DNA of 23,720 nt, taken from positions 1-23,720 of IMG/VR virus record IMGVR_UViG_3300031884_001575. One strand, 5' to 3'. Made by a program: the position numbers and the translations under genes. The notes under the pieces were generated by a model. That model worked only from the letters and a program-made list of their open reading frames with translations. It was not told the DNA's origin and did no database searches. Positions 3,537 to 19,813 of the stretch are shown one piece after another. Source of the stretch: a virus. Numbering within the stretch: the stretch's first letter is position 1; each line of letters begins with the position of its first letter.

Positions 3537-3986
3537 ATGACCACGGTCACATCACCCACGCCCACCACGGGCATTCCCCCACACCCTGTTTCCAACATCC
3601 ATGCGGCTTCCGAGCCGAAAAAGGCTGATTTACCCAACACCACTGCGCCCAAAGCGGCAACCCCACGCGCAACAAGCGCAATCGAAACAGCCTTGCGCGC
3701 CATCCTGTCCGAGGTCACACCCGGATACCGGCCGTTCTTCAGCTCCGACAGCTACCTGCCGGCCCACCTGGTGGACGCCGCACGGGCCGCGCTCGCTGGC
3801 AACAGCACGGAAGCCCACCAACAGGCTCACAACGCATTGAGCACCGCAGCTTGGCACATTGCACGCGGCGAGGCACCGCAGGCCCTGGCAAGGCTGCGCA
3901 GAGCCCGCAGCCACATCATGGCCAGCATGGAAGCCCCCGGCACGCCGAAGCAAACAGGCGATTGCATGGAGGTGGCCCATGTCTGA
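3537..3986 (+). CDS. First gene of the early operon, unknown phage protein
   Basis: The protein has 149 residues. The ATG at 3537 has a TAGGAG ribosome binding site eight bases upstream, and that site overlaps the CAGTTAG target of the antisense leader. The N-terminal third is Pro/Thr/Ala-rich and low in structure ('PHPVSNIHAASEPKKADLPN'). The C-terminal part is predicted to be helical, with 'LPAHLVDAARAALAG' and 'ARLRRARSHIMASME'. I do not recognise a catalytic domain. Bases 3573-3650 align without gaps to 19676-19753 (about 60 of 78 identical) in the same frame. By analogy with P1 ant and P4 operons, it would be the first protein released when the leader RNA is relieved; this is inference. 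Confidence 0.7.
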   Translation: MTTVTSPTPTTGIPPHPVSNIHAASEPKKADLPNTTAPKAATPRATSAIETALRAILSEVTPGYRPFFSSDSYLPAHLVDAARAALAGNSTEAHQQAHNALSTAAWHIARGEAPQALARLRRARSHIMASMEAPGTPKQTGDCMEVAHV

Positions 3987-5134: not shown

Positions 5135-5935
5135 ATGGCAAACGGACGCAACCCAAAGCGCCGGGGCCGCGACGAAACACGCGACTCTGGCGGGTTCGTT
5201 GCGTTGCCGTGGTCAGTGCTGGACTGTCCGGCCTACGCCCAGTTGTCCCACCCGGCCCGGTCACTGCTGCTGGAGTTCGCGCGCCAGTACGTGCGGGACA
5301 ACAACGGCCGGCTGCTGGCGTCTTATGCCTACCTGCTGCCGCGCGGATGGTGTAGCAAGGACGTTATCACCCGAGCCAAGCGGGAGCTGATCGCGGCAGG
5401 CTTTGTTCATGAAACCGTGATGGGGCACAGGCCGAACAAGGCCGCTTGGTATGCGGTGACCTGGCGCACCTTGGACAAGATCCCCGGCTACGACTTCGGG
5501 GCCGCTGAGGCATTCCAACGCGGGGCATATCGGCAGGGGGTGCCAATCGCCCGTGCTGCTGCTGGACCGGCTGGCGGTATGGGTCGTGCGCCTCTTGGCC
5601 CGTATCACGGGCAAGACAAAAACACAACCCTTAGCCCGTCTCACGGGCCAAGGGGCTCCATTACTGGCCCGTCTGACGGGCTAGAGGGTGCGACCATTGG
5701 CCCGGGAGACGGGCCAATAGAGGCTACTTTTTGCACCTTCCTTAGCCCGTCAGACGGGCACCATCTAGATAACCATCTACTGCACGTTGAATTGGAGGTG
5801 CCCGCAAGCAAGGTAACCGGTACTGCGAATGTCGGGATTCCGATTACGGCAAGGCAGCGGGACAACGCCGCCGGAGTAAGCCGACCTGACGATGCGAGTC
5901 GGGCTGGCGCCGCGTGCGCTAGCATGAGTATTTGA
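5135..5935 (+). CDS. Winged-helix replication-initiator-like protein 1, with internal iterons
   Basis: The 266-residue protein starts at the ATG at 5135. Residues 20-115 look like a winged-helix domain: 'LSHPARSLLLEFARQYV', 'NGRLLASYAYLLPRG', 'SKDVITRAKRELIAAGFV' and a beta wing ending in 'AAWYAVTWRTLD'. The same plan is found in phage replication proteins of the lambda O or RepA-like helix-turn-helix type. From residue about 150 the protein becomes low-complexity (repeated 'SPSDGP'), because this DNA holds five palindromic repeats. Lambda O likewise carries its origin iterons inside the gene, so this is a good candidate for origin plus origin-binding protein. The role is inferred, and the second such gene at 10922 shares the N-terminal plan. 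Confidence 0.68.
   Translation: MANGRNPKRRGRDETRDSGGFVALPWSVLDCPAYAQLSHPARSLLLEFARQYVRDNNGRLLASYAYLLPRGWCSKDVITRAKRELIAAGFVHETVMGHRPNKAAWYAVTWRTLDKIPGYDFGAAEAFQRGAYRQGVPIARAAAGPAGGMGRAPLGPYHGQDKNTTLSPSHGPRGSITGPSDGLEGATIGPGDGPIEATFCTFLSPSDGHHLDNHLLHVELEVPASKVTGTANVGIPITARQRDNAAGVSRPDDASRAGAACASMSI
5598..5759 (+). repeat. Iteron array 1: five 15-bp palindromes inside the initiator-like gene
   Basis: The repeats have the form GCCCG-(5 bases)-CGGGC and lie at 5598-5612, 5634-5648, 5667-5681, 5700-5714 and 5745-5759. Start-to-start distances are 36, 33, 33 and 45 bases. Centres vary (TATCA, TCTCA, TCTGA, GGAGA, TCAGA), while the arms are constant, and flanks tend to be TT(A/G) before and (C/T)A after. 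A constant arm with a variable centre points to a dimeric protein binding site. The array is the best candidate for a replication origin or operator in this half of the element. Confidence 0.75.
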
Positions 5936-7454: not shown

Positions 7455-7736
7455 ATGCAAGTATTCAAGCCGCCAAATGAAAAAGCCGTCAACGCCCTGG
7501 CAGGCAATTCGACGGCTCCCAAAAGTACACAGCAGTTGGATTCTATCCAATCGAATAACTGCGTGCAATCTCGTGGTGTGCGCCGCATCGCGATTGCCGT
7601 CATTCACCTTGTGGTGCATGGCCTGCGCTACATCACCAAACTTACCGCCAACCTGATCCGCCTGAAGAGCCTGGGCCTGGCGTTGTGGATCACTGCCTAC
7701 GAAATGGCTCCTGACTGCAAAGGGGGCCGCGAGTGA
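7455..7736 (+). CDS. Small unknown protein between alpA-like and parB-like genes
   Basis: The protein has 93 residues, starting two bases after the AlpA-like stop and overlapping the ParB-domain gene by four bases. The N-terminal half is polar; residues 43-85 ('RRIAIAVIHLVVHGLRYITKLTANLIRLKSLGLALWITAYEM') are amphipathic to hydrophobic and could lie on a membrane, though this does not look like a clean transmembrane helix. No family is recognised. Tight spacing on both sides supports a real coding sequence. Confidence 0.6.
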   Translation: MQVFKPPNEKAVNALAGNSTAPKSTQQLDSIQSNNCVQSRGVRRIAIAVIHLVVHGLRYITKLTANLIRLKSLGLALWITAYEMAPDCKGGRE

Positions 7737-8524
7737 AATATTCACAGCACCCACTGAGCTCAGCCTTCCCCGCAATGAGCGCGGAAGAATTCACGGCACT
7801 CAAGGACTCCATTGGCATCAATGGCGTCCTGAACCCCATCACTATTTTCGAAGACATGGTGATTGACGGTTGGCACCGGTACACCGCCGCGACCGAATCC
7901 GGCGTTGACTGCCCTTCGGTGGTTATGGATGACTCCATAGACCCGATTGACTTCGTGAAGGCACAGAACGAGAACCGGCGCCACCTGACCGCATCGCAAC
8001 GTGCAGCGGCGATTGTGAGCATCTACCAATGGGTGCCAAATGGCGCAAATCAGCATGCCAAGGGAGGGGTGGAACCAGGTTCCTACCCTCCAAAAACCAA
8101 TGCCGAATTGGCCTCTATTGCAAAGGTCAGTACCAAGACAATCCAGCAGGCGAAAGTGGCACAAAAGGCCGGCCTGACTGAGGCCGTGAAGGACGGCGCA
8201 ATCACTGTGAAGGAGGCCGCGCAGATTGCATCCGGCAAGTCACTGGTCAAGTCTCATGCAGCCCCAGAAGACGATGGCCCGGACGCCGACGAGCTCGCAG
8301 CCAACGCCATGGCTGCAGCGGAAGACGCCAAGCACCTGGCTGGTTTGCTGGATGCCGATGACAAGCTGGCATTCGCGGTGGCAGAGGTCAAACGCCTGAA
8401 CGCACTTAATGCGAACCTTCAGTTGCGCGTCAACGGCCTGATGAACGAGAAGAACGAAGCCGTTAGGGCTGCCAAGGCCATGGAACGACAAGTGCAGCGC
8501 CTGCGCAAGGAGGCTTCGAAATGA
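7733..8524 (+). CDS. ParB-like nuclease/N-terminal-domain protein
   Basis: The 263-residue protein begins with a GTG at 7733. Residues 1-65 carry the ParB/Srx fold signature ('GVLNPITIF' and 'VIDGWHRYTAA'), followed by the ParB-typical 'AQNENRRHLTASQRAAAI' at about 77-94. An HTH-like block follows near 112-150 ('NAELASIAKVSTKTIQQAKV'), then an Ala/Asp-rich linker and a C-terminal coiled coil (225-263). Phage proteins of this type act in replication, gene regulation or DNA modification rather than in classical partition. No ParA is seen next to it. It lies in one operon with the helicase, which starts by ATGA overlap at 8521. Confidence 0.82.
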   Translation: MKYSQHPLSSAFPAMSAEEFTALKDSIGINGVLNPITIFEDMVIDGWHRYTAATESGVDCPSVVMDDSIDPIDFVKAQNENRRHLTASQRAAAIVSIYQWVPNGANQHAKGGVEPGSYPPKTNAELASIAKVSTKTIQQAKVAQKAGLTEAVKDGAITVKEAAQIASGKSLVKSHAAPEDDGPDADELAANAMAAAEDAKHLAGLLDADDKLAFAVAEVKRLNALNANLQLRVNGLMNEKNEAVRAAKAMERQVQRLRKEASK

Positions 8525-10059
8525 ACGCCTTCAACAAGAACCTCTGGGAAGAAAAGCCCGACTATCTGGCAACGACATTCCCACCGGCGCGCCCGTTCCA
8601 GTTGGCGGCACATCAAGCATTGCGGGATGGATTCAAAGCTGGCCACCGCTGCCAGGTCATCATGGCACCGACCGGCGCCGGAAAGACATACCTTGCGCAC
8701 AAGATTGCACTGGAGGCCCTGCTGAAAGGTTGCCGCGTGGTGTTCGTGTGTGACCGCACGACGCTGATCAACCAGACCAGCGCGGCAGCAGATGCCTACG
8801 GACTGTCGGCGCACGGAATTGTGCAAGCGGACCACTGGCGTCGCAACGGGCACCGGTATCAGATCGCAAGTGCCCAGACTCTGGCCAAGCGCGGCTACTG
8901 GCCTGACGCTGACGTCATCATCATTGATGAGGTGCACACACAGCTTTCGGTCTGGACTGAGCACATCCAGAGCACCAAAGCGGCCTGCATCGGGTTGTCG
9001 GCGACACCGTTCAGCGCGGGTCTCGGGAAGTTGTTCACCAATCTGATCAACGCCACCACCATGCACGAGCTGACACAGCAGGGCGTTTTGGTGCCCATGC
9101 GCGTGATGTCCTGCAAGCGCGCCGACATGTCCGGCGCCGCCACCGCAGGCGGGGAGTGGACAGATGCGGCCGCAGAGCAGCGCGGCATGGAAATCGTTGG
9201 CGACGTCGTAACCGAGTGGCTGAAATATGCCCAGGGCCGCAAGACCATCGTATTCGGCGCCACCATCAAGCACTGCCAGGAGCTGGCCCGCCAGTTTTTG
9301 GATGCCGGTGTGATGGCTGCCGTGTTCACCAGCGAGACGACAGCCCCAGAGCGCGACCTGCTTATCAAGGAATACAGCAAGGCCGATTCCCTCCTTCGCG
9401 TGCTCATCAGTGTTGAAGCGCTGGCCAAGGGGTTCGATGTGCCAGATGTGGGTTGCGTGGTGGACTGCCGGCCGCTGCGCAAGTCGCTGTCGACGGCTAT
9501 CCAGATGTGGGGCCGCGGGCTCCGCTCATCCCCTGAGACCGGCAAAACAGACTGCTTGCTTCTGGACCACAGCGGCAACATCGTGCGCTTTGCGGAGGAT
9601 TACAGCGAAATCTTCTTCAATGGCCTTGAGGCACTGGACAGTGGCGAAAAGCTGGACAAGCAGATCCGCCGTGATGATGACGACAGGCAAGAGTCTGACG
9701 GCTGCCCAAAGTGTTCCTACAAGCCATTCTTCAAGCGTTGCATGTCTTGTGGCTACGAGAAGCAGGCCCCTGCGTTGGTCGAAGCTGTTCCGGGTGAGAT
9801 GCAAGAGATCTTTATTGGCAAGAAGAAGATGGCCGACGACCATCGCCACCTCTGGGAGCAGGTTTGTTCCTATTCGCGGGCCCACAGCGTCCCTGGCAAG
9901 CAGTATGGCCGTGCATGGCATCTGTTCCAGAAGATCGCAGGCCGGGACCCGCTCCAGGTGTGGCGCCTTGAGTCCACGCCCGTAGTCCCAATCACTGCCA
10001 ACGTTCGCAACAAAATCACGAGCCTGAACGTCGCGTACGCGAAAGCGAGGCGCGCATGA
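8521..10059 (+). CDS. Superfamily 2 DNA helicase with zinc finger
   Basis: The 512-residue product has Walker A 'APTGAGKT' (49-56), the DEVH Walker B box (136-139), motif III 'SATPF' (160-164), motif V 'SVEALAKGFDVP' (about 297-308) and motif VI 'QMWGRGLRS' (328-336). After the helicase core, Cys395, Cys398, Cys407 and Cys410 form a CxxC...CxxC zinc-binding site. This is the phage-type DEAD/DEAH-like helicase often found with Toprim primases, where it would unwind DNA at the replication fork or origin. A restriction-enzyme R subunit is an alternative family, but there is no methylase or specificity gene nearby. It overlaps the ParB-like gene and the primase gene by four bases each. Confidence 0.88.
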   Translation: MNAFNKNLWEEKPDYLATTFPPARPFQLAAHQALRDGFKAGHRCQVIMAPTGAGKTYLAHKIALEALLKGCRVVFVCDRTTLINQTSAAADAYGLSAHGIVQADHWRRNGHRYQIASAQTLAKRGYWPDADVIIIDEVHTQLSVWTEHIQSTKAACIGLSATPFSAGLGKLFTNLINATTMHELTQQGVLVPMRVMSCKRADMSGAATAGGEWTDAAAEQRGMEIVGDVVTEWLKYAQGRKTIVFGATIKHCQELARQFLDAGVMAAVFTSETTAPERDLLIKEYSKADSLLRVLISVEALAKGFDVPDVGCVVDCRPLRKSLSTAIQMWGRGLRSSPETGKTDCLLLDHSGNIVRFAEDYSEIFFNGLEALDSGEKLDKQIRRDDDDRQESDGCPKCSYKPFFKRCMSCGYEKQAPALVEAVPGEMQEIFIGKKKMADDHRHLWEQVCSYSRAHSVPGKQYGRAWHLFQKIAGRDPLQVWRLESTPVVPITANVRNKITSLNVAYAKARRA

Positions 10060-10925
10060 ACGCATTCCTCCTGTTTGCCCGGGCCCACGGCCTGGAGCTC
10101 GATGCGAGTCGCCTGATGGTTGGTGAGCGTGTGCGCCGCTGCGGCACCATCGACAAGCCCTGGTCAACCAACGGTGCGTACTTTTGGGATGGTGAACGCG
10201 GCTGGGTCTTCAACTGGGCAGAGGAAGCCAAGGCGTATTGGTTCAACGATGTCAATGCAGCGCCATGGACCGAAGCCGAGAAAGCCGCGTGGAAGGCCAA
10301 GCGCGCTGCGGCTGCGACCAACCTGGAGGCTAATTACCAACGTGCTGCCGTTCGCGCTGCCGAGCTGATTCGCAGCACTACCCCGGGCCCACATGACTAC
10401 CTGCACAGGAAGGGCTTTCCAGATGCCCAGGGCATGGTGGCAAAAGACGGCGCGCTGGTCATCCCCATGCGCAATATGGATACCAACGCTTTGCAGGGTG
10501 TTCAGCTGATCCTGTGGAATGAGGCTGAGCGCAAGTGGGAAAAGAAGATGATCCCCGGTATGCGGGCCAAGGGCGCCGTTTTCTGGATCGGCGACAAGCA
10601 AGCCCCGGAGACGTTTCTGGTCGAAGGCTATGCAACAGGGCTGAGCGTGGTGGCCGCGCTGCGCAGCGTGGGTCTGCGGGCTTCCGTGCTGATCGCCTTC
10701 AGTGCCAACAATCTGGTGCTGGTTGCCCCCCATGTGAAGGGCCGGGCGTTTGTCTTTGCCGACAACGATGTATCAGGCACCGGTCAGCGCGCCGCAGAGG
10801 CGACGAAATTGCCGTGGTGCATGAGCCCCGGGGCTGGCGAGGATGCCAATGACCTGCATATGCGTGCCGGCCTGATGGCGGTCTGTCAGCAGATCATGGA
10901 AGTTCGCAGGAGGGCGCGCCCATGA
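10056..10925 (+). CDS. Toprim-domain DNA primase
   Basis: The 289-residue protein has an N-terminal region with 'LMVGERVRRCG' and 'GAYFWDGERGWVFNW', which resembles the primase-associated domain of phage/plasmid Toprim primases. It then has a catalytic Toprim domain: the Glu in 'FLVEGYATGLSVVAAL' (Glu190) and the DxD in 'VFADNDVSGTG' (Asp236, Asp238). These residues bind magnesium for primer synthesis. No CHC2 zinc finger or helicase domain is present; the SF2 helicase encoded just upstream may supply the latter activity. The start overlaps the helicase stop (ATGA) and the end overlaps the second initiator-like gene. Confidence 0.88.
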   Translation: MNAFLLFARAHGLELDASRLMVGERVRRCGTIDKPWSTNGAYFWDGERGWVFNWAEEAKAYWFNDVNAAPWTEAEKAAWKAKRAAAATNLEANYQRAAVRAAELIRSTTPGPHDYLHRKGFPDAQGMVAKDGALVIPMRNMDTNALQGVQLILWNEAERKWEKKMIPGMRAKGAVFWIGDKQAPETFLVEGYATGLSVVAALRSVGLRASVLIAFSANNLVLVAPHVKGRAFVFADNDVSGTGQRAAEATKLPWCMSPGAGEDANDLHMRAGLMAVCQQIMEVRRRARP

Positions 10926-11761
10926 GCAGGTACACAAAGCCACAGCGTGACCCACGCGGCCACAGCATGCGCATCTATGACGACGTCTACGATAGCCACG
11001 CCTTCGCCGCACTTTCGCCGCATGATGTGCTGGCCTACCTAGCACTGCTGCGCGAGCTGAAGCAATACAACAATGGCGACCTGTCCCTACCGCTGACCCG
11101 CGCCAGCAAGCGCGGTATCAGCCATTCCAAGACCCTGGCCCGCAGCCTGCGCGCCCTGTGCGCCGTGGGACTGGTGGCAATCACTCGCAAGGGTGGATGC
11201 GCACGTGACGGAGAGCGCCTTCCGACACTGTACCGAGTGACCGACCGCGTGTGCTACGACATTCCAAAGTTGATGCTTCACGCCGTCAAGGAAACCAACG
11301 AATGGAAGCGCATCGCCAGTGTCGAACAGGCCATAGACCTCATTGCCGCTGCTGAACTTGCCGCAAAGAAAGCCTATGCAGAAAAAATTAGCCTAGGGCA
11401 CGCCGTGCTGCATACCGCATCACTAGGTGCCCTGGTAAGCCCAAATACTAGGGCACCTAGTGATCCATGGAATGATGGACTAGGGCACGGCGTGACTATG
11501 GTTGAAAAGGGCTCAAATCCAATAGGCATGCGGGTTGTGGGCGGGTTTTCTGATGAAGGTGAAAAAGCAATCCATAGGGCACCGCGTATGCCTCCTTTAT
11601 ATGTTGCCATCCCTACGCCGTATTTGGACTCTGTGAAGTACGTCCCTCGCTACCACTGGCTTACGAAAAACCAAATCGGCTTCATTGCAAATCTGATCGG
11701 CAAAGCCCAACCCCACGCCGCCGAGCACTTCGCCGGCAAACACGATCCCATCAACTTTTGA
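10922..11761 (+). CDS. Winged-helix replication-initiator-like protein 2, with internal iterons
   Basis: The product has 279 residues. Residues 18-110 have the same plan as the protein at 5135: 'LSPHDVLAYLALLRELKQY', 'NGDLSLPLTRASKRG', 'SKTLARSLRALCAVGLV', then a strand pair ending 'PTLYRVTDRV'. Identity between the two is limited, so they are distant relatives at best. Residues 157-225 are encoded by DNA holding five copies of a TAGGGCAC repeat, and the C-terminal 40 residues ('VPRYHWLTKNQIGFIANLIGK') are again ordinary. Position behind helicase and primase supports a role in replication initiation. Start is an ATGA overlap with the primase gene and has GGAGGGCG upstream. Confidence 0.68.
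   Translation: MSRYTKPQRDPRGHSMRIYDDVYDSHAFAALSPHDVLAYLALLRELKQYNNGDLSLPLTRASKRGISHSKTLARSLRALCAVGLVAITRKGGCARDGERLPTLYRVTDRVCYDIPKLMLHAVKETNEWKRIASVEQAIDLIAAAELAAKKAYAEKISLGHAVLHTASLGALVSPNTRAPSDPWNDGLGHGVTMVEKGSNPIGMRVVGGFSDEGEKAIHRAPRMPPLYVAIPTPYLDSVKYVPRYHWLTKNQIGFIANLIGKAQPHAAEHFAGKHDPINF
11394..11582. repeat. Iteron array 2: TAGGGCAC repeats with a 12-bp inverted pair
   Basis: Copies on the + strand are TAGGGCAC at 11394-11401, 11449-11456, 11481-11488 and 11575-11582. A reverse copy is at 11421-11436, where CACTAGGTGCCC (11421-11432) is a perfect inverted repeat of GGGCACCTAGTG (11451-11462) across an 18-base loop. The copy at 11447-11461 is itself palindromic (ACTAGG-GCA-CCTAGT). The sequence is unrelated to array 1. 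All lie inside the initiator-like gene, again as in lambda O. Confidence 0.72.
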
Positions 11762-19381: not shown

Positions 19382-19813
19382 TTGCCGCAGCAGGAAAAAG
19401 CCACTGGGCTAAAGAATGAACTGAGTAGCTGGCTCACTTTTGAGCCAGTAATCCAAAGCCGGGAGGGCGCACCCAAGGTGCGGGTAGACTTTCTTCCGAT
19501 ATGGGAATTCCAGCAACGGAGCCTGAGCCAACCCTTGGCCGTGGTCTATTTGGTGCTGGCGCTGGTGGCATGGCGTCATGTACACCAGGCGCGCCGTGCC
19601 GGTGGCCAGCGCCAGCGGAATGGGTCCACAGCTCACGCCCACGGCTTTTGCATACGGCGTGCGATGGTAGCCGAGATTACCCCACACCAAGAAACCTGTA
19701 TCCATGCGGGTTTCGAGCTAAAAAGGGCTGATATACCCAACATCCCTACGCCCACGGGCTCGCACGCCATGGACCAAGCCGGCGACAGCACTCTGAACAC
19801 TAACATTTGCTAA
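19382..19813 (+). CDS. Doubtful open frame with a copy of the early-gene N-terminal segment
   Basis: The frame could encode 143 residues, but only the last 45 ('TCIHAGFELKRADIPNIPTPTGS' onward) have support: they match the N-terminal part of the gene at 3537 in the same frame. The upstream part reads poorly, and the first codons contain two strong hairpins (19430-19447 TGGCTCA-CTTT-TGAGCCA and 19468-19482 CGCACC-CAA-GGTGCG), which suggests the leader is an RNA rather than protein-coding. It may be a decayed early-region remnant or an Ash-like phage P4-type gene. The start is unknown and I see no good ribosome binding site. Confidence 0.35.
   Translation: MPQQEKATGLKNELSSWLTFEPVIQSREGAPKVRVDFLPIWEFQQRSLSQPLAVVYLVLALVAWRHVHQARRAGGQRQRNGSTAHAHGFCIRRAMVAEITPHQETCIHAGFELKRADIPNIPTPTGSHAMDQAGDSTLNTNIC
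19676..19753 (+). repeat. Diverged copy of bases 3573-3650
   Basis: The two 78-base stretches align without gaps with about 60 identities by hand count, including an ATTxCCCCACACC start, CCATGCGG and GGCTGATxTACCCAACA. Both lie in the same orientation 16 kb apart and in the same reading frame of their host open frames. This suggests a repeated early-region module rather than a recent duplication. Confidence 0.7.

Follow-up and report, generated by a model that had tools for sequence, protein, structure and literature searches.

The dyad array inside the 266-aa gene that opens at ATG-5135 of the window, the whole 23,720-nucleotide viral stretch analyzed here, very probably supplies the DNA-binding half of a replication origin, one lying across the 3′ part of the gene for its own initiator. 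Judged by comparison of related loci, the arms of the dyads are not constant in the family and co-evolve with the recognition helix of the encoded protein, which most likely binds the dyads itself.

The dyad array and its gene in the window

The pattern GCCCG-N5-CGGGC (GCCCGNNNNNCGGGC) occurs in five exact copies, starting at 5598, 5634, 5667, 5700 and 5745; these are the only ones in the 23,720-base record. The exact pattern count thus agrees with the first-pass annotation, which had described five palindromic iterons at spacings of 36, 33, 33 and 45 bp; shuffled windows were expected to hold 0.07 ± 0.26 dyads, and none of 100 shuffles reached five. The array sits in the 3′ half of the gene, where all five dyads share one codon phase and encode a repeated G/S-P-x-x-G peptide (Table 1). 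The fifth iteron copy, 36 bp upstream of the other four, is present in the window and in two further loci (L035 and L064). No clear switch in GC skew was seen at the array.

By Pfam scan, the window protein has a weak, below-cut-off match to HTH_36 and no domain in its C-terminal tail. Its relatives match the "replication initiation" families phrog_270, phrog_678 and phrog_428, each weakly, and 2 of 15 relatives match TIGR01610 (phage_O_Nterm) weakly. The nearest solved folds are the staphylococcal plasmid initiators 4pql, 4pt7, 5kbj and 4pta (Z 7.6–6.8); the top match, 4pql_B (Z 7.6, under 8; 104 residues, rmsd 3.8), could reflect a common fold. In the AlphaFold2 model, the predicted recognition helix begins at residue 75. 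The family lacks a conserved C-terminal domain for helicase loading.

An AlpA gene lies near the array in the window, and tail genes lie farther along. Directly 3′ of the primase gene, the gene at 10922–11761 has a weak O-like replication-initiation match (phrog_18020, E 0.06) and has no visible repeat array. At 1420–1992 lies a phage integrase remnant, of which the C-terminal part alone can be read. A 79-nt direct repeat (3573–3651 and 19676–19754, 77% identical, 16 kb apart) lies near the start of the gene at 3537.

Table 1. Coordinates of features in the window, with strand and the basis of each assignment
Feature	Coordinates	Strand	Basis
Initiator-like gene, 266 aa: winged-helix domain and iteron-encoded tail	5135..5935	+	ORF, array-bearing homologues, relatives' phrogs
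Winged-helix DNA-binding domain, ~residues 20–118	5192..5488	+	AlphaFold2 mean pLDDT 87.4; HTH_36 weak
Predicted recognition helix, residues 75–88; residue 75 co-varies with iteron arms	5357..5398	+	AlphaFold2, alignment
Extra upstream iteron GCCCGTATCACGGGC	5598..5612		Exact pattern and spacing
Core iteron 1 GCCCGTCTCACGGGC	5634..5648		Pattern and 33/33/45 layout of homologues
Core iteron 2 GCCCGTCTGACGGGC	5667..5681		Pattern and 33/33/45 layout of homologues
Core iteron 3 GCCCGGGAGACGGGC	5700..5714		Pattern and 33/33/45 layout of homologues
Core iteron 4 GCCCGTCAGACGGGC	5745..5759		Pattern and 33/33/45 layout of homologues
T-run in the interval between iterons 3 and 4, position conserved	5728..5732	+	18-locus alignment
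Conserved tail ACCATCTAGATAACCATCT adjoining last iteron; possible unwinding element	5760..5778	+	A+T-rich in distant relatives
ParB-like gene, operon-like cluster shared with initiator-like gene	7733..8524	+	phrog_4715 3e-15
DEAD/ResIII-type helicase gene	8521..10059	+	phrog_16 3e-75, Pfam ResIII
Toprim-type primase gene	10056..10925	+	phrog_2249 7e-35, Pfam Toprim_3

Conservation of the array among homologous loci

Alignment-based searches yielded nine viral matches, one of which was the contig of the close relative L005 again, and 70 chromosomal loci, mostly from Comamonadaceae and Oxalobacteraceae (Burkholderiales) with some from Pseudomonas, Microbulbifer and Dokdonella. The viral relative L005 (63% identity) carries four copies of CACCGTCTCACGGTG at 33/33/45 bp, with both arms changed relative to the window. 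A comparison anchored on the tail found the motif in 69 loci, 67 of which were analyzed, and the exact 33/33/45 core spacing was present in 62 of these 67. Fixed blocks accompany the core: CCTT 5′ of iteron 1, the T-run between iterons 3 and 4, and CACCATCTAGA..CCATCT 3′ of iteron 4. The tail flanks the array on a single side and has the consensus CACC-A/T-TCTAGA-N-AT-R-CCATCT in most loci (CACCATCTAGA-N-ATGCCATCT), and in distant relatives the part upstream of its CCA is 78% A+T, against 49% in the surroundings.

Wider searches of three genome groups found relatives in 35 of 399, 17 of 195 and 17 of 274 genomes. With a strict dyad method, 27 of 60 further loci had at least three like dyads past the domain, compared with 0 of 180 shuffles; a looser method detected more arrays, and at least three dyads appeared in 1 of 23 shuffles. 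Almost all homologues in the close group whose DNA-binding domain is intact keep the array. The homologues without it are three truncated genes (L084, L088 and L093) and L067, in which other sequence, apparently a mobile-element-like end, has taken the place of the gene's 3′ flank. Homologues that conserve the protein and have lost the palindromes, the case that the first-pass annotation had named against its own proposal, were looked for and not found.

Six Pseudomonas relatives (L006, L024 and L089–L092) have a fixed 22/54/35 layout that lies largely outside the gene, with the arms GTACAG, GTCCA and TTCGA; this layout covers 111 bp in total, as does 33/33/45. Three further loci came from a dyad pattern search. 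L009 and L011 were set aside as coding repeats without an initiator. L010 (6650–9061) has a gene for an HTH_36 protein with internal dyads of the AGTCCG-N5-CGGACT type, followed by a DnaB-type helicase; it gave no alignment with the family, was rejected as a member, and was kept as a parallel case, apparently an independent instance of this layout.

Selection acts on the DNA, as had been suggested from the window alone. In 16 of the 67 loci the reading frame stops just past the winged-helix domain or within the array, and the array is nevertheless retained, with exact 33/33/45 spacing in 12 of the 16 and a departure of one base in the other four. Arm pairing is similar in frame and past the stop (on average 4.09 and 4.24 paired positions of 5). 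CCG accounts for 191 of 207 iteron codons, compared with 85 of 319 proline codons (27%) in the N-terminal domain part of the same genes. The array is in frame in about three quarters of loci, as expected if selection acted on P-x-x-G repeats in the peptide, but its persistence past stop codons, and its placement mostly or entirely beyond the gene in Pseudomonas and many further relatives, led us to reject this explanation, which is almost certainly wrong.

Every dyad could also form a 5-bp stem in a transcript, so that five hairpins might act in attenuation, stability or protein binding. Arm changes between lineages are usually two-sided, and several arm positions show three different Watson–Crick pairs. 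Among one-sided changes, 22 give G-U and 46 give A-C; since G-U is not the commoner product, RNA pairing is not what is kept. On this count we rejected RNA hairpins, which are highly improbable also because the arms track the recognition helix of the protein and the spacing follows the DNA helical repeat.

The claim that the iterons lie close to whole helical turns apart does not stand on the window alone, where every spacing is divisible by 3 as well and 36 bp is a poor fit, but it gains support from the family. In distant relatives with arrays outside reading frames, spacings cluster at 22, 32–33, 42–45 and 54–55 bp. Their best period is 10.9 bp with a phase near zero (R = 0.69, reached by 0 of 5000 jittered sets). 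The Rayleigh and Mantel tests used here correct only in part for shared ancestry.

Arm sequence and the recognition helix

The first-pass annotation regarded the arms as constant and the centers as variable. This is correct within the window, but between homologues the arms differ by lineage, and the differences follow the recognition helix: R75 occurs with GAC arms, P75 with an ACG core and H75 with TCC, while Q79 is found mostly with GTTC arms and M77/K80 mostly with GTAC arms. When the helix columns were left out of the tree, R75 appeared five times, P75 four times and H75 three times, with the matching arm in 12 of 12 cases; these counts are by parsimony on a protein tree without strongly supported branches. 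Residues 75, 76, 79, 80 and 83 correlate with the arms (partial r 0.225, 0 of 2000 permutations). Residues 64 and 46–50 correlate as strongly as residues 75–79, indicating that part of the arm signal is lineage or indirect.

Pairs of nearly identical proteins behave in the same manner. L038 and L018, with 9 differences in 108 residues, five of which lie in the recognition-helix region (73, 75, 78, 79 and 84), have ACTACG and ACACCG arms, respectively. L045 and L048 differ at 14 residues, including N75K, and have AGCCCG and ACACCG arms. Among additional loci read by eye, three GW-x-S-R proteins (L110, L114 and L145) have GAC arms, and TTCAG-type or similar arms occur with four of the five S75 proteins. 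Two loci from a single Hydrogenophaga bin, L058 and L066, have GTACCG and GGACCG arms and carry A75 and R75, respectively.

The two half-sites of a dyad are not equally conserved within a locus: one is well kept, at 88% identity, and the other is looser, at 51%. The better-kept half-site is the right half in iterons 1 and 2 and the left half in iterons 3 and 4, with 59% agreement between loci.

Probable origin function and comparison with known systems

The array is likely to be an origin. The following scheme is inferred as regards physical binding, dimerization, opening at the tail and the role as an origin. The N-terminal winged helix (~residues 20–118) would bind each dyad, probably as a dimer, with its recognition helix (residues 75–88) in the arms. 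Spacings close to the helical repeat would place the proteins bound at the four core dyads along a single face of the DNA. Strand opening or loading would then take place at the conserved tail next to the last dyad, a candidate unwinding element, and the element's own helicase and primase, or those of the host, would act next. The nearby helicase and primase genes speak for an origin; against it, the array in some elements has no replication gene beside it.

Dyads bound by a winged-helix protein are also typical operators, and capsid, portal or terminase genes come next in some elements, as would be expected if the protein were a transcription regulator, such as a late-gene activator or an autorepressor, controlling the genes downstream. 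However, the genes 3′ of the array differ among loci (helicase, primase, capsid, integrase or chromosomal genes). The array is at the 3′ end of the gene, away from its promoter. Like sites outside the arrays number 32 in 587 kb, near the ~22 expected by chance on our own estimate, and thus indicate no regulon. Together with the initiator-type matches of the family, the plasmid-initiator folds and the lambda-like layout, the varied 3′ genes and chance-level sites favor an origin, and we regard an operator array as improbable.

Less probable still is a partition centromere, in which the repeats would be a parS- or tubC-like site for plasmid or phage segregation. The winged-helix protein TubR (3m8f) is among the weak fold matches, and a ParB-like gene lies 2 kb from the array in the window, but that gene is not conserved beside the array at other loci and no partition ATPase recurs among the neighbor clusters. 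Most loci are chromosomal and ~3 kb from an integrase, and integration of most elements beside an integrase makes a centromere less likely than the origin.

The origin reading had been proposed by analogy with lambda O, and the analogy applies to layout, not to sequence family. As in lambda, where our control located four 18-bp iterons at 39034–39118 inside O (38686–39585), the iterons of the window lie inside the initiator gene; an N-terminal DNA-binding domain and an A+T-rich stretch beside the iterons are also shared. Phage_rep_O (PF04492) was not matched by the window protein or 15 relatives in a Pfam scan that recovered the lambda O control at 6e-36, and hhalign of the family against lambda O gave a probability of 2%, so homology to lambda O by profile is unsupported. 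The spacing of 33/33/45 bp also differs from that of lambda (20/24/23 bp), and unlike lambda O, the family has no conserved C-terminal domain and the array is often past the stop codon. Lambda O binds as a dimer, and related phages have six iterons (PMC7466680).

In pSK41-type RepA_N plasmids, four Rep boxes lie centrally in rep and are bound by a winged-helix N-terminal domain, and the linker encoded by the ori is dispensable (PMC5703833). The family shares boxes inside the initiator gene with these plasmids, and its best fold matches, all below Z 8, are the plasmid-initiator domains 4pql, 4pt7, 5kbj and 4pta. RepA_N (PF06970) was not among the Pfam hits with E ≤ 0.1 for the window protein and 15 relatives; moreover, the family has no recognizable primase-binding C-terminal domain and is found here in Gram-negative integrative elements and prophages. 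By the sequence tests run, the initiator gene falls outside both the lambda O and the RepA_N families.

RepA of PLEs, the satellites of ICP1, has a DNA-binding domain that co-varies with, and must match, semi-palindromic iterons, and PLE diversification has been ascribed to an origin-cutting nuclease (PMC8263062). The PLE origin, however, is in a separate noncoding region and has three iterons, and two specificity types of it are known. Here the array overlaps the gene and there are many specificities. The rep-ori of PICIs (PMC6092414) is similar in that the origin is directly 3′ of rep, with integrase, AlpA and sometimes capsid genes alongside, but in PICIs an A+T-rich region lies between two iteron sets, in contrast to the single set with a tail on one side found here.

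Across the family, the position of the array alternates between inside and outside the reading frame. In the open-access literature searched, we found no description of such an origin-initiator family in Burkholderiales; in the groups searched, this apparently undescribed family is present in ~6 to 9% of sampled genomes. Tentatively, its members may be mutually exclusive initiator-origin pairs of small integrative phages and satellites, in which changes of arm and helix repeatedly create new specificities, driven by avoidance of cross-replication among elements sharing a host or of attack by origin-cutting nucleases. If so, L058 and L066 of the Hydrogenophaga bin would be a compatible pair. 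Because protein and sites change together in relatives, rules of DNA reading can be read from nature, and the matched protein–DNA pairs are a natural series for reading and testing a winged-helix recognition code, which bears on the evolution of initiator-origin specificity and incompatibility.
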